A stretch of 64,000 bases of DNA from Dehalococcoidia bacterium (GCA_011170375.1 DUEV01000002.1:124001-188000); one strand, 5' to 3'; positions 10,591-63,041 are shown, counted from the first letter of the stretch. Notes: a model not told the origin generated them from the letters alone. A program made the numbers and translations.

Positions 10591-10634
10591 TGACAAAATA
10601 CTGAAAAATCAAATACGCTTTACGTCCATGCAAA

Positions 10635-10745
10635 CATCCCGATGTTTACTCAATAGCTCCGCTCTCCCTTTGACTTCGCACGTTCACCCTATTGACAACA
10701 ACTCTCCAAGACATTACAATCAACTACCCCTTACAATACTGATGC
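10635..10745 (+). promoter_or_regulatory. Dispersed repeat copy A: dyad plus strong sigma70-type promoter
   Basis: Begins with the dyad AAACATC-CC-GATGTTT (10634-10648 region) and continues to a promoter with TTGACA at 10692-10697, a 17-base spacer and TACAAT at 10715-10720. A second TACAAT sits at 10732-10737. The block from TTCACCCTATTGACAAC through the -10 and on to the second box is clearly related to copies at 13444 and 62940, including spacer and flanks, so it is a repeated module and not just a chance promoter. The predicted start of transcription is near 10727. Only the first box is at correct spacing for use as -10. Confidence 0.7.
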
Positions 10746-10858
10746 GTACGCCAAACCCGACCTCTAGACCAGCGATATTCTGGTTGATGGGCGGGAGAGG
10801 AAGGTAGAAGAGGCACTGGAATCGCTACTATGAGGCAGCCAGTGCCTTATCTTTTAGA
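10727..10858 (+). ncRNA. Candidate structured leader RNA / attenuator, copy A
   Basis: About 130 bases between the promoter at 10692-10720 and the lipoprotein gene. It holds an internal hairpin (ACCAG-CGATATT-CTGGT, about 10768-10784) flanked by C-rich and G-rich arms that can pair (CCCGACC with GGGCGGG, one mismatch). It ends in AGGCACTGG (10811-10819) pairing with CCAGTGCCT (10839-10847), followed by TATCTTTT, a terminator-like end. Copy B at 13479 has the same order, a related purine-rich linker (GGTAGAAGAGG versus GAAGAGGTAAGAG), the same A-A-T-C-G after the first terminator arm, and compensating base changes in the terminator stem (CACTGG/CCAGTG versus CACCAG/CTGGTG). Covariation suggests a real RNA. 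It could be a riboswitch-like attenuator of the next gene or a free small RNA. Confidence 0.45.
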
Positions 10859-10883
10859 AATAGAAGAGTGGGGTAATCAAGAA

Positions 10884-12200
10884 ATGAAGAGGAAATTGCT
10901 ATGGCTGTTTCTTAGTTGTCTTGTGGTTCTAACTCTAGTAGCGTGGTCTTGCGGTGGGACAACGTCTGTGAATGGGGAAGAGGAAGAAGAGGAGGAAGAA
11001 CTGAAACCGTCGGAGGTTGGTGAGTGCACTTTTGAAATAGATGTTGTAGGCCAGGGTAATACCAATCCCAGTCTAGGTAGTCATACATATGTCGGAGGTC
11101 ATGAGTTAACCATCACAGCAGAACCTGAACAGGGTTATCATTTCGTCGGTTGGGGTGGTGATATCCAGAGTACCTCGGATATTGTTCTTATTATCGTCGA
11201 CAGGGACATAAGTGTGACCGCGTATTTCGAGCTAGAAGAACCCGATCTTGTAACACTTGTGATCAACATTATTGGGCCTGGAACTACTGAACCTGAACCA
11301 GATGCATACACCTATGACAAAAACGCAAGCGTAACCATCACTGCAAAACCTGATACCTATGCTCACTTTATGGGATGGAGCGGAAATATTTCAGGTACCT
11401 CTCTCGAAATAACCATCACGATGGACAGTGATAAGGCTATTACAGCTAACTTCGAACGAGACCAGGTAACACTCGACTTAGCCATGACAGGAGAGGGAGG
11501 AGGGATCATTCCCACTGTGGGAGTGTATACCTATGATAAGGGAACTCTGGTGACTGTTGAAGTGGATTACGTCGATGAGGATACTGCATATTTCGATGGC
11601 TGGTATAACCTGCAAGGAGCTCAGGTGAGTGATGAGTACAACTATAGCTTCGATATCAAGAATGACACTTATCTTGAGGCTCGTTTCGTACGGCTGTTTT
11701 ATTTCAGCTATAGCTGGCAAGGTCCAGGGAGTGTGGAAAGTAGCCAATCTGCAGGTATCTATGGTGAGGGCACCGAGATAACTGCAACGAGTTATCCCGA
11801 TTCAGGAGCATGTTTTGTTGGTTGGTTTTACAATAATGGATATCTAGTAAGTCAGCAGAATCCATATCAGGTTATCATGAGTGGTGATATTCAACTCGAG
11901 GCTCGTTTCGCTACAGCAATATCACTCGTGATTAACGTTGATGGACCAGGTAGCAGCAATCCTACTGAAGGCATACATTGGTATTGCCAAGGAAGTCAGG
12001 AATCAATCACTGTCACGCCTGATCCGGGTGCTCATCTCGTAAGTTGGACCGTGGATAGTTATACAATTTTCTCCTCGGATTGGTCCGTTCATTTAGACTT
12101 CGGGTCACATATATTTCGGGTCTATAATAGTGCTGGCATCCTAATGGCTATATTTACTTCTAACGAAGACGTGCATGTTAATATTGTGTTTGATTCATAA
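10884..12200 (+). CDS. Secreted lipoprotein with five InlB-type B repeats
   Basis: 438 residues from the ATG at 10884. An ATG at 10830 lies inside the upstream terminator hairpin and would place 18 residues before the signal sequence, so I reject it. Residues 1-23 are a lipoprotein leader, M-K-R-K-L-L-W then a hydrophobic core ending L-V-A-W-S-C, with Cys23 as lipid site; Trp at -2 is unusual. A linker with eight consecutive glutamates follows, then about five repeats of 65-75 residues. Each has G-x-G near the start, a Y or H-T-Y turn, an I-T-A-x-P-x-x-G/Y segment, F-x-G-W and a closing A-x-F. This is the Listeria-Bacteroides/InlB B-repeat type found on cell-surface proteins. Probably a surface-exposed adhesin-like or spacer protein. 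The leader matches that of the binding protein at 35092. Confidence 0.85.
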   Translation: MKRKLLWLFLSCLVVLTLVAWSCGGTTSVNGEEEEEEEELKPSEVGECTFEIDVVGQGNTNPSLGSHTYVGGHELTITAEPEQGYHFVGWGGDIQSTSDIVLIIVDRDISVTAYFELEEPDLVTLVINIIGPGTTEPEPDAYTYDKNASVTITAKPDTYAHFMGWSGNISGTSLEITITMDSDKAITANFERDQVTLDLAMTGEGGGIIPTVGVYTYDKGTLVTVEVDYVDEDTAYFDGWYNLQGAQVSDEYNYSFDIKNDTYLEARFVRLFYFSYSWQGPGSVESSQSAGIYGEGTEITATSYPDSGACFVGWFYNNGYLVSQQNPYQVIMSGDIQLEARFATAISLVINVDGPGSSNPTEGIHWYCQGSQESITVTPDPGAHLVSWTVDSYTIFSSDWSVHLDFGSHIFRVYNSAGILMAIFTSNEDVHVNIVFDS

Positions 12201-12345
12201 TAGGATAATCAAACATCTGAATACGTATGCGGTAAAATTCTATTTGTAGATTTAGTCGCCCACGTTTGCGGTGGTATTGTTTGTGAACGATGGACGCACT
12301 TCACCCGACCACTGCACAAGGGAATCATTGATGGAGGTGATTGAA

Positions 12346-12519
12346 ATGGCAGAGACATTGGTGATATGCACACATTGTAAGGCTATGTTTCCTTCTCCAA
12401 TAGTGTTTGGAGATAGAAAATCCTTTCAAACCTCTACTCTAAAAGGAAATACAGTAACATGCCCAGAATGTGGTACTATCGTGCCCTGCAATAAGGAGAA
12501 CATGATATTCAAGGAGTGA
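12346..12519 (+). CDS. Small zinc-ribbon protein
   Basis: 57 residues from ATG 12346, preceded by GGAGGTG at proper distance; longer starts at 12271 or 12331 lack such a site. Two C-x2-C pairs, C-T-H-C near the start and C-P-E-C about 25 residues on, form a likely four-cysteine zinc ribbon, with a further C-N-K-E near the end. No known family is recognised. It lies between two secreted-protein genes and may be a regulator or metal-binding protein. Confidence 0.6.
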   Translation: MAETLVICTHCKAMFPSPIVFGDRKSFQTSTLKGNTVTCPECGTIVPCNKENMIFKE

Positions 12520-12577
12520 CACCCACTAATATGAGGGATAGAATGAGTGTACGATAGTATATAAGAGGAAATAGCAG

Positions 12578-13378
12578 ATGAAGGCCAAAACACTCACAAT
12601 AGTAGTGGTTCTGGCTATACTGGCCTGTTCTATTACAACGTGTACACCCAACGACAGCTACTTGGTACAGGTAATGAAGCTGGCGCCTGAAGATACCAAC
12701 GTGGTTTTGTGTATAGACGCCGAAGCAATAGCGGAAGATCCCGATTTCGGTTATATATATGACGCCACTGTTAGCAGCTTGGGTCACGAGACGGCCAATA
12801 TAGACCGTTCGGCCATCTCCACTCTCGCCAGTATTTCCACTGATTCGTATTACGTACTTGTATTTGTAGGGGACTTTGGCCTCAAAGATGTCCGCGGTAC
12901 CCTGATTGAGGAAGACTATGTGGAAGGCGAATACCTGGGGGTAGAAATCTGGACGGGTGACTTTGAACACACTGTAGCCTTTATAGATAACATGATTGTC
13001 TCTAGCTATACGACAGACTCAGTTAAGGCCTGCATCCGCATCCATAAGAACGAGGAGCCCTCAATGTATGACAATGAAGACATGAAATCCGTGGTGGACA
13101 AACTGCCCGCCAGCGTCGTCAGCGTGGTATTCGGGCCAGACTATATGTCTGATATTGAAATTTTAGCTGGTGGAATATGCGTGCAAAACCAGAATCGTGA
13201 AGATGAAGTCCTGGATTATACAGGCTGGTACAGATTTGATAGTGAGGTAAGTGCCGAAGACGCCATGGAAGACTTCGAAGATTATATGAGAATCGAATTA
13301 GATGCCATAAGTATTAACGCTCATTTGAGTGGTCAATTTATAGAAATAGCCGCCGAGGTGGAGTTACCTGAATATTGA
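12578..13378 (+). CDS. Uncharacterised lipoprotein
   Basis: 266 residues with a short N-terminal hydrophobic leader (M-K-A-K-T-L-T-I-V-V-V-L) and two possible lipobox cysteines (I-L-A-C and I-T-T-C). Export and lipid anchoring are therefore likely, although the exact cysteine is uncertain. AAGAGGAAATAG stands before ATG. The mature part is acidic (many D/E) with alternating V/I/F strands and no catalytic motif I recognise. The passage V-V-L-C-I-D-A-E-A-I then D-Y-V-E-G-E-Y-L-G-V-E-I-W recalls domains found in secreted proteins of unknown function. It sits among other small accessory genes and is followed by repeat copy B. Confidence 0.65.
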   Translation: MKAKTLTIVVVLAILACSITTCTPNDSYLVQVMKLAPEDTNVVLCIDAEAIAEDPDFGYIYDATVSSLGHETANIDRSAISTLASISTDSYYVLVFVGDFGLKDVRGTLIEEDYVEGEYLGVEIWTGDFEHTVAFIDNMIVSSYTTDSVKACIRIHKNEEPSMYDNEDMKSVVDKLPASVVSVVFGPDYMSDIEILAGGICVQNQNREDEVLDYTGWYRFDSEVSAEDAMEDFEDYMRIELDAISINAHLSGQFIEIAAEVELPEY

Positions 13379-13395
13379 TAGATTATGACTAGCAT

Positions 13396-13505
13396 ATCTT
13401 CAACGGTCTACTAGTCTTCTTCTTTGACTTCCCATGTTATGTATTGACAACACCCTACCAAGGGACTAAAATCGACTCCCCAGTACAATATTCATACGTA
13501 TACCA
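13396..13505 (+). promoter_or_regulatory. Dispersed repeat copy B with sigma70-type promoter
   Basis: Second copy of the repeat module: TTGACA at 13444-13449, 17-base spacer, TAAAAT at 13467-13472, then a further TACAAT at 13484-13489. The stretch CTTTGACTTCCCATGTTATGTATTGACAA aligns with CTTTGACTTCGCACGTT...ATTGACAA of copy A (shown in part). The left end (13396-13421, TCTTCAACGGTCTACTAGTC) recurs at 14124-14150. Predicted transcription start is near 13479, feeding the leader RNA and the SRPBCC gene. Confidence 0.65.
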
Positions 13506-13616
13506 CTAATACCCAACCATATTCGACCTCTTGTGAAATAAGTCGGGAGGTGGGTAGTGGAAGAGGTAAGAGCACCAGAATCGTCAGAACGAATGGTGGT
13601 GACTGGTGCTTTTTAA
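13479..13616 (+). ncRNA. Candidate structured leader RNA / attenuator, copy B
   Basis: Homologous to the leader at 10727. CCACTAATACCC (about 13504-13515) can pair with GGGTAGTGG (about 13552-13560) around an inner ACCTC/GAGGT stem. An alternative pairing CGAC/GTCG competes with the inner stem, the kind of switch used in attenuation. The end is a clear intrinsic terminator: AGCACCAG (13571-13578), a loop holding its own TCGT-CAGA-ACGA hairpin, CTGGTGCT (13603-13610), then TTTTT. The next gene starts 25 bases later behind its own AAAGGAG, so readthrough would control it. No known riboswitch class is recognised by eye. Confidence 0.5.
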
Positions 13617-13640: not shown

Positions 13641-14087
13641 ATGAGAATAGAGAATTCTATAGAGATTGCCGCAACAGCGGAAAAATTTTGGCATTTTTTG
13701 ATCGAGCCTGAGAGGGTCTTAAGGTGGTCTCCTTTCAGCAAGTATGAGTATACAAGTGAGCAACGTAGCGGAGTGGGCACGACAATACACGTTGAAGAGA
13801 AAGTCCCCCTTCTAATACCATCGCTAGAGGTCGACTTTACAGTTACAGAATGGATTGAGAACGAGAAAATTGTTGCTGAGATGCAATCTGGTCCTGGATT
13901 CCTTAAGGAAGTCGAAGAAAAATGGTTGATAGAAGCTATTCCATCTGGGAGTCGAGTTACCTATATAGAAAACGCCGAATTTTCTCGTAGTATCATTGGT
14001 AAGCTTTTCGGATTTTTTACCCAGCTTACTGCTGATAAGAATACAAGAAAGATGTTATTAAAGTTGAAAGGGCAGGTAGAGGCATGA
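13641..14087 (+). CDS. SRPBCC/polyketide-cyclase-like protein
   Basis: 148 residues with the START/SRPBCC layout. A first strand M-R-I-E-N-S-I-E-I-A-A is followed by helix A-T-A-E-K-F-W-H-F-L-I-E-P-E-R-V-L-R-W-S-P-F, then alternating strands with T-V-T-E-W and E-E-K-W-L-I-E-A, and a long C-terminal helix. Members bind a small hydrophobic ligand in the helix-grip cavity; no catalytic residue can be assigned. AAAAGGAG lies 9 bases before ATG. It stands alone under the promoter and terminator-containing leader described above. A-T richer than the neighbouring metabolic genes, perhaps acquired. Confidence 0.75.
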   Translation: MRIENSIEIAATAEKFWHFLIEPERVLRWSPFSKYEYTSEQRSGVGTTIHVEEKVPLLIPSLEVDFTVTEWIENEKIVAEMQSGPGFLKEVEEKWLIEAIPSGSRVTYIENAEFSRSIIGKLFGFFTQLTADKNTRKMLLKLKGQVEA

Positions 14088-43924: not shown

Positions 43925-43991
43925 TAATATACCTCCCTAAACAATTAGAAAAACACCAATCACCACCATTCATCCGTCGATTCTGCCACTC

Positions 43992-44723
43992 TTACCTCAG
44001 ACGCCTCGTTATCCAAGAGCGAATAGCGCTGGGTTTTTCGGCGCTCTGAGGTTCGCTTGATCTATCTACCACTTCCTTTTCGAGAAAAGCACCTATCGCT
44101 CTTGCGAGGCTATATATATCCTCTTCATTCCTCTGCCCCTGATTTAGGCTTTCGAGTTTAATATCCTCTTCACCAGTATCAAGAGAGCATTCCCAATGAA
44201 AAGAATCCTCCCAGGAAGGTCCACCAAACCAATCCTTATTTATGACGACCTTTTTTGCCTTGGATATTGGGATGGAACGTTGCCTTTTAATCAGCAGTGG
44301 GTCCCTAAATTCAAAGACAATAGTCCCACTGTACTTGCTAATAATGATTTTCTTACTAGTAATATAAATTAGATAAAGCCAACCCACGACAGTAAAGAAT
44401 AGACCAATTATAGCCAACAATATAAAAGGGAAACTCCATCGAATAATGGAAATGACTATCATGGAGATTCCAGACCCCAAAATCATAGTCATTAGAAGGA
44501 AATCGAAGTAATTCGATCTAAGACGCTGGACAAAACCCGGTGCTATCACCAAGGTCTGCCAGTCCCACACCTTAATTCTCCTGCTATATTTCCACGGTTC
44601 GCGCCGCTCTTCCTTATGTTGATGCCGCTCGTCTGTATACTGTTGTTGGTCTCTTTCCGCCCTTTCTTTCCACCTTTGAATTATTTCATCTCTGTCAGGT
44701 TCTCTTGATTTATCGCTATTCAT
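43992..44723 (-). CDS. Membrane protein with two central helices, unknown family
   Basis: 243 residues. Residues 1-60 are highly charged (E-R-D-Q-Q-Q-Y-T-D-E-R-H-Q-H-K-E-E-R-R-E). Two hydrophobic helices follow (about 75-95 and 100-120: L-L-M-T-M-I-L-G-S-G-I-S-M-I-V, F-I-L-L-A-I-I-G-L-F-F-T-V-V-G). A soluble C-terminal part with beta-strand pattern (K-K-I-I-I-S-K-Y-S-G-T-I-V-F-E-F) resembles a PH-like domain and ends in a basic tail. No start site stronger than the ATG at 44723. Function unknown; possibly a cell-envelope or signalling protein. It shares no operon partner except the small ORF upstream. Confidence 0.6.
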   Translation of the reverse strand: MNSDKSREPDRDEIIQRWKERAERDQQQYTDERHQHKEERREPWKYSRRIKVWDWQTLVIAPGFVQRLRSNYFDFLLMTMILGSGISMIVISIIRWSFPFILLAIIGLFFTVVGWLYLIYITSKKIIISKYSGTIVFEFRDPLLIKRQRSIPISKAKKVVINKDWFGGPSWEDSFHWECSLDTGEEDIKLESLNQGQRNEEDIYSLARAIGAFLEKEVVDRSSEPQSAEKPSAIRSWITRRLR

Positions 44724-45180
44724 CTTCCCTTACTCCTACCATCAACTACAAACCAAAAAGAGCGCCACTCACAACTATTCATCTGACGATTCTGGTAATC
44801 TTGACTATCTTCCACCGCCCACCCCTACCAAGGATTCCCTTGTATCGGGGTTCTACATGATACGATAATCCATGCTGCATAGCCCCGAACTGAATCCGAC
44901 GACCAAGAGTATGACTACAATAATCACCAGTACTATTACGCACCCTCTCATCACAATACCGCACTCCATGCGGGCGGTTAATAACCTATATAAATCCCTA
45001 TTATCTTCCAAGCGCCTTGTCAGTTGCTATCGAGTGGAGGGGACGTATCGTGTGCCAAGGATATCACCGTGAACGTAGAAAATCAAATCAGGTTCTTGTC
45101 GCCCCTGTCACTTAAATCACCTAACTGCTATACTATAGGTGCTAAAAACTATGTCTTGCTTTTGAAGGGGGTGAGCACCA
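44724..45180. other. Intergenic region with possible small membrane ORF
   Basis: 457 bases between the membrane protein and nitronate monooxygenase copy 3. The reverse strand holds a 38-codon hydrophobic ORF (listed separately). The part from 45000 to 45180 should hold the promoter of the plus-strand gene: a TATACT at 45129-45134 is the best -10 seen, with only a weak -35, then AAGGGGGTGAG before the TTG start. Confidence 0.4.
44853..44969 (-). CDS. Possible small single-helix membrane protein
   Basis: 38 codons: M-E-C-G-I-V-M-R-G-C then a run V-I-V-L-V-I-I-V-V-I-L-L-V-V-G-F and a short tail with C-S-M-D-Y-R. The continuous hydrophobic helix with a positively charged edge is what small membrane proteins look like, and the codons keep it across about 50 bases. 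The ribosome site is weak (ATAGGTTATTAA). It could form an operon with the membrane protein 130 bases downstream. Uncertain: no homolog is known to me. Confidence 0.3.
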   Translation of the reverse strand: MECGIVMRGCVIVLVIIVVILLVVGFSSGLCSMDYRIM

Positions 45181-62714: not shown

Positions 62715-63041
62715 CTCGTCACCTCTGGTTACTCCTGATTGAGGTCAGCCCACCGCAAGCCTGTGGACTACTCCCTATTCTATCTCACGAAGCCTGTTTC
62801 GACAAGCCTAGTACCATGTTATGTCAATATCCCAAAGTAATGATATAATGGGGGAAATACTAATATCTTGAATTCTACACCCATGTTGTCATGCCGATGT
62901 TTGTTTGCTAAAAACGTTCCTTCCTGCACGTTCGCCCTATTGACAACAACCACACAGAGGAATACAATCAACTCCCTATAATATGCATACAACTAACCAT
63001 AACCAAGTTTTACAGGGGCTCTCATGTTGGGAGGTCTGAAC
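62715..63041. other. Repeat-bearing intergenic region before DUF3795 gene
   Basis: 327 bases. It holds repeat copy C (62890-62992) with a good promoter and no structured leader like those at 10727 and 13479. A further TATAAT at 62844-62849 has poor -35. The gene after it starts with GGGAGGT seven bases ahead of ATG 63042. Confidence 0.5.
62890..62992 (+). promoter_or_regulatory. Dispersed repeat copy C with sigma70-type promoter
   Basis: CATGCCGATGTTTGTTT (62890-) aligns with the dyad part of copy A, although one arm is changed. TTGACA (62940-62945), 17-base spacer, TACAAT (62963-62968), second box TATAAT (62977-62982). The run GCACGTTCGCCCTATTGACAACAAC is nearly identical to copy A over most of its length (given in part). 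Predicted start near 62975. It drives the DUF3795 gene. Confidence 0.65.

Follow-up and report, generated by a model that had tools for sequence, protein, structure and literature searches.

The two promoter-leader-terminator cassettes described here lie in a 64,000-nucleotide window, by which we mean the whole stretch of Dehalococcoidia DNA analysed. They belong to a real family that is absent from Rfam and, as far as sampled, specific to the class. What do these cassettes do? We lean towards reading them as ribosome-mediated transcription attenuators that have dispersed as a family, in which a ribosome at the start codon of a very short reading frame would keep an adjoining terminator from forming and so allow the downstream gene to be transcribed.

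The cassettes of the window and their relatives

Both window cassettes lie on the plus strand. The first (10692-10856) begins with the promoter TTGACA-17-TACAAT (10692-10720), located by a promoter-site scan; folding predicts a leader hairpin at 10756-10795, CCCG/CGGG with inner GACCAG/CUGGUU, a subtype common to just one further copy (L037, at C10:268961). Sequence and fold place an intrinsic terminator with arms GAGGCACTGG/CCAGTGCCTT and a T-rich tail at 10810-10856, and the terminator model R2, described below, matches it at C10:134799-134857. Behind it is an InlB-repeat lipoprotein gene (10884-12200; Pfam Flg_new_2/InlB B-repeat PF18998, E 8.6e-38). The second cassette (13444-13616) carries the promoter TTGACA-17-TAAAAT (13444-13472, same scan) and a 5' hairpin, CCACTAATACCCAACC..TTCGAC / GTCGGGAGGTGGGTAGTGG (13503-13560), which by folding and by genus-wide pairing is predicted to pair with the Shine-Dalgarno sequence of a mini-ORF. 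This Shine-Dalgarno sequence, GGGAGGT (13545-13551), was assigned from the spacing to an NTG codon that nearly all genus copies with such a site show, and the mini-ORF itself (13557-13616) has a GTG start and 19 codons (VEEVRAPESSERMVVTGAF), with a frame that runs through the terminator. The intrinsic terminator, GAGCACCAG..CTGGTGCTTTTT (13570-13614), is identified by sequence, fold and covariation and is matched by R2 with E 1.5e-11; an SRPBCC / polyketide-cyclase-like gene follows (13641-14087; Polyketide_cyc2/SRPBCC PF10604, E 1.4e-10).

A first-pass annotation of the window had proposed two homologous promoter-leader-terminator modules in front of unrelated genes, and this is borne out. 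Mean column identity between the two copies is 73% in an alignment of about 290 columns, DNA searches with both return a genome-wide family, and the downstream products fall into different Pfam families (PF18998 versus PF10604). The TTGACA-17-TACAAT/TAAAAT promoters score 11/12 each and rank first and second among the 39 promoter-like sites between 5000 and 20000, where 20 were expected. Also present are the second TACAAT, the stems of both leaders and the terminator arms CACTGG/CCAGTG and CACCAG/CTGGTG, and the leader folds reach z scores of -2.2 and -2.8 against dinucleotide shuffles (-2.7 and -3.0 with a shorter cut).

Two further features lie around the first cassette and its gene. Directly 5' of the cassette, at about 10619-10684, is another dispersed repeat, distinct from the cassette, in which the hairpin AACATCCCGATGTT precedes TTTGACTTCGCACGTTCAC; it occurs elsewhere in the host genome before several cassettes and also without cassettes. 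At 12255-12300, a fragment, CCCACGTTTGCGGTGGTATTG, resembles the sequence that lies upstream of copy C6:113925 and is possibly a cassette relic.

How large is the family? DNA searches with the two copies found about 15 related places in the host genome (2.28 Mb, 17 contigs). The covariance-model check suggested by the first-pass annotation was carried out with a model built from family copies: R1, made from 11 full copies, recovers 13 host-genome copies at E<0.01, so that the family total there is at least 13. R1 also finds 7 and 10 copies in two congeneric genomes, four copies across two further genomes of the same taxonomic family, and copies in three genomes from other families. A second model, R2, covers the terminator hairpin and includes ten linker columns; of the 393 Dehalococcoidia genomes sampled, it finds 21 that carry the family, a lower bound owing to the filters used, with up to 14 matches per genome. 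Many of the positive genomes hold several matches and others single ones. Among 301 genomes of the phylum, R2 matched only two, both Dehalococcoidia, and no covariance-model match fell outside the class among the sampled genomes. A DNA pattern of the hairpin, run against 84,980 bacterial and archaeal species, returned 31 stretches, of which 26 are from Dehalococcoidia or Dehalococcoidales; at the other five (Catelliglobosispora, two Mycobacterium, Enterobacter and Verrucomicrobia) the remaining cassette parts are absent.

The collection assembled in this way holds about 126 distinct copies, and TTGACA lies upstream in 32 of 40 copies from the host genus and 66 of 86 others. The first-pass annotation had matched the modules to no known class, and Rfam agrees: searches of the window and eight loci at gathering and relaxed thresholds gave nothing relevant, riboswitches and T-box included. 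We found no papers on such leaders in Dehalococcoidia or Chloroflexota in the open-licence literature.

Partial copies also occur in the window. A related terminator hairpin without promoter lies on the minus strand at 44750-44856 (C10:168750-168856; R2 E 5e-5), where it follows the end of the reading frame before it, and a weaker promoterless terminator copy lies between two genes at 43945-44034 on the same strand (R1 E 0.17, DNA E 7e-7). At 62928-62990, on the plus strand, a copy of the promoter only stands directly before a gene without a terminator (DNA match C10:186928-186976, E 3e-5). One copy in the collection (L104, 10880-10916) is near the end of an IMG/VR contig listed as viral.

Selected pairing and a start codon in the linker

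The first-pass annotation had taken the changed but still complementary terminator arms to mean selection on RNA pairing, and had staked its proposal beforehand on further copies and covariation; both were found. In 64 copies, 91.8% of the cells of the terminator stem are paired, and 42 double-change cells were counted against 17.8 +/- 6.1 in shuffled controls, with none of 500 shuffles reaching 42. Leaders from the genus show 26 double-change cells against 10.3 +/- 3.5, mostly in the lower stem of the terminator. The shuffles take no account of how the copies are related, and the alignment of the genus leaders had been fitted to its own model; we therefore take these values as strong indications of selected pairing rather than as probabilities.

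Upstream of the terminator, structure is a matter of the genus. There a small number of compensatory changes is seen in the 5' hairpin, and the upstream strand is complementary to the Shine-Dalgarno region above shuffles (p 0.0014). Outside the genus, the fold energy of the leader equals that of shuffles. Because the 5' hairpin is conserved in the genus only, an aptamer fold upstream of the expression platform is absent class-wide, and we reject a class-wide riboswitch aptamer. Of the original label, riboswitch-like or small RNA, the structured-leader family stands; riboswitch and free small RNA are not supported in that form, given a genus-only 5' hairpin and a linker that in most copies is a translation start. 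The switch proposed for the second cassette, an ACCTC/GAGGT stem competing with CGAC/GTCG, did not hold up as a conserved feature, since family members keep either stem: L030 and L031 lack CCTC and keep CCCGAC/GTCGGG, while L033 and L035 lack CCCGAC and keep CCTC/GAGG. Either variant would sequester the same Shine-Dalgarno sequence.

The purine-rich linker noticed at the outset is present. In most copies it reads as a ribosome-binding site followed by a start codon, and so speaks for an attenuator worked by the ribosome. Of the 86 copies from outside the genus, 71 have an ATG 6-18 nt ahead of the hairpin, against 27.4 under shuffling and at most 40 in 1000 runs; in 33 the distance is exactly 9 nt, against 2.4 under shuffling and at most 8. 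The shuffles overstate the significance of both values because the copies are mutually related, and about 15 of the 86 have no ATG within 6-18 nt. The ten linker columns of R2 could bias these counts, and the copies found by the hairpin pattern alone serve as a control: 21 of 23 have the ATG. Pairing to the anti-Shine-Dalgarno sequence, scored with an assumed canonical 16S tail, peaks 6-8 nt 5' of the ATG at about -5.0 kcal/mol, against +0.9 kcal/mol far upstream, and AAA is the most frequent codon after that ATG. Among the 28 genus copies with a GGAGGT-like site, 27 have an NTG 5-6 nt behind it (GTG 22, TTG 3, ATG 2). Within the window, the second cassette has the mini-ORF; the first, like its sister L037, has no start codon at the expected place.

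A conserved leader peptide was considered and rejected: the non-genus products are MK, MKQGH, MKQGHWNR and longer ones, and their stops vary. What is conserved is the position of the start, while peptide length and frame vary; many mini-ORFs run through the hairpin, and in many the stop lies inside the terminator. Genus peptides often begin V-E-D/E, which may reflect a constraint on the nucleotides.

Side features were seen at several copies. L054 (G001:C11:79088-79188, minus strand), a member of the host genus, has promoter and 5' hairpin but no terminator. Its purine-rich block, equivalent to the linker of other copies, provides ribosome binding for a zinc-ribbon-like gene, which supports reading the linker as a translation start; the hidden Shine-Dalgarno sequence thus serves that gene directly, and this leader could act on translation. 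In seven copies (L028, L029, L041, L047, L083, L129 and L141), a second conserved block, AAGGAGGTGATRCCTAT, lies between terminator and gene; this block is possibly a further mini-ORF, such as MPM*, and the gene starts 80-140 nt further on. Non-genus copies also conserve CAAGTTCCAACATGTGAAAC..ACCTTAAAAT from the -10 to about +30 without stable folding, possibly as an operator or a protein-binding RNA site.

Proposed mechanism and relation to known attenuators

How might a start codon control a terminator? A strong promoter would produce a leader of about 100-130 nt. The hairpin begins at about +10 from the start codon outside the genus and at +13 to +17 inside it. The mRNA covered by a ribosome on a start codon reaches +16/+18 (PMC9226507, PMC12121999), a footprint measured in bacteria other than Dehalococcoidia, and the ribosome's leading edge would here rest on the first bases of the terminator. 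If the ribosome were there as RNA polymerase passes, the lower stem beside the U-tract would be blocked and the gene transcribed; if it were absent, or had moved on and been released, transcription would stop at the terminator. With an edge at +16/+18, the predicted hairpin stability of about -23 kcal/mol in non-genus copies drops to about -13/-12 kcal/mol, and that of -22 kcal/mol in genus copies drops to -17/-13 kcal/mol. In the genus, the 5' hairpin that hides the Shine-Dalgarno sequence could set the ease of ribosome loading. It is from sequence that we infer termination, its prevention by ribosome occupancy and the response to a signal, all three.

Several observations weigh against an attenuator of this kind. 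Even with a ribosome bound, the hairpin could form its upper half, and the effect is weaker in the genus; the first window cassette, L037 and the roughly 15 of 86 non-genus copies are without the expected start; pairing between leader and terminator arm equals shuffles, so that no antiterminator is seen; and the terminator is more conserved than the model needs. At least six of its 18 pairs are near-invariant in identity (for example C16-G55 and C27-G45, each in 62 of 64 copies), and copies from different families retain an A/RN internal loop. Conservation beyond the needs of pairing may reflect a second reader of the hairpin, possibly a protein. Taken further, this becomes a different attenuator, one controlled by a protein or ligand that binds the terminator hairpin in trans, or the 5' hairpin in the genus, with the start codon secondary. 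The near-invariant pairs, the internal loop and the retention of the 5' hairpin in the genus would all suit it. We nevertheless think it unlikely, as the class has no common 5' structure, the downstream genes have no common pathway, and the geometry of start codon and Shine-Dalgarno sequence would be left unexplained.

For the ribosome-mediated attenuator there is precedent in mini-uORFs that precede a terminator, with a toeprint at +16 (PMC9226507, PMC10201436). The uORFs of ABC-F attenuators encode MIN (vmlR), MRI (cplR), MK[L/Q] (VmlR2) and MAGN (LsaA) (PMC9226507, PMC10201436). They share with our cassettes the order of promoter, very short uORF with Shine-Dalgarno sequence, intrinsic terminator and gene, and in both the start position counts above the peptide. 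In cplR a 5' hairpin hides the uORF, as in the Dehalococcoidia genus here (PMC9226507, PMC10201436). The cassettes differ in having no ABC-F or resistance gene behind the roughly 70 copies tested, many copies per genome, unrelated downstream genes, a conserved terminator sequence and a start codon directly at the terminator; unlike the vmlR model, they show no antiterminator pairing above shuffles. The known mini-uORF attenuators each guard one resistance gene. The short toiL uORF of E. coli topAI also has a start codon on which a ribosome can be held, its edge reaching +16 to +18, so that the downstream gene is switched, but toiL acts on translation and Rho-dependent termination rather than on an intrinsic terminator, and is a single locus (PMC12121999). 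Our best model is that the cassette would work like a mini-uORF transcription attenuator, yet outside the ABC-F group.

Two other leader types were compared. The terminator arm is often CACUGGAACCGC, which we take to resemble the T-box sequence UGGNACCGCG; a T-box leader was rejected, since Rfam gives no match and UGGN is missing from most genus copies (CACCAGAAUCG). In the surveys, the listed members of family f2, presumably Dehalococcoides/Dehalogenimonas, had no match to R1 or R2. The rdhA motif of Dehalococcoides, a weak riboswitch candidate (PMC11109978), is likewise a candidate leader RNA from Dehalococcoidia; it is tied to reductive dehalogenase genes, and we set it apart by its description and by the survey.

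Downstream genes and dispersal

Of the 121 copies long enough to judge, 116 are followed by a same-strand gene after the terminator, at a median distance of 45 nt. In 106 of the 116 that strand is clearly the coding one, a few copies are without a clear gene, and most of the genes have their own ribosome-binding site. A simple rule based on hydrophobicity and the lipobox predicts export for 47 of the 116 products (41%); for the 47 control genes taken from the window the number is 6 (13%; Fisher p 0.0005). A common pathway was sought and rejected, the Pfam domains including SnoaL, SRPBCC, EthD, GYD, CARDB, cadherin, PKD, TPR, PAS, catalase and others; no ABC-F domain or resistance gene was found in about 70 downstream proteins tested.

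Because the closest paralogous copies in the host genome are similar from the -35 to the terminator only, with unrelated flanks, the cassette evidently moves, or is homogenised, as a unit. Copies 87-92% identical precede unrelated genes. Between G000 and G002 only two loci are orthologous, out of ten or more copies; they are 84-86% identical, and at both leader and gene stay together. Could spread rather than regulation lie behind the copies, the cassette being a dispersed repeat with a constitutive promoter and terminator? The paralogues that match only within the unit, the scarcity of orthologous positions and the likewise dispersed, unrelated-looking repeat upstream would be expected of one, and the copies are indeed discrete units without flank similarity, as in REP/MITE-like repeats. 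Their placement, however, depends on orientation: the cassettes keep a consistent direction and spacing to the next gene, retain the start codon and compensatory changes, and are conserved across several families, which makes this reading improbable. Free small RNAs acting in trans, with the downstream gene a bystander, would fit the cassette's own promoter and strong terminator and the few copies that lack a clear gene, but are very improbable given the position of nearly all copies just 5' of a same-strand gene, mostly with its own ribosome-binding site, the joint retention of leader and gene at the two orthologous loci, and the failure to see a conserved unpaired seed.

For annotators, model R2 offers a new RNA family. 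We put forward tentatively, as a rather doubtful extension of the ribosome-mediated attenuator, that the promoter, mini-ORF and terminator may form a portable attenuator, whose dispersal would put unrelated, often exported, genes under the control of ribosome loading and so build a regulon responsive to translation status. The cassette spreads without its gene, and a genome has up to about a dozen copies, standing before genes unrelated to each other, in a class of which hardly any member is in culture. If confirmed, such a regulon would owe its wiring to a mobile leader instead of a transcription factor.
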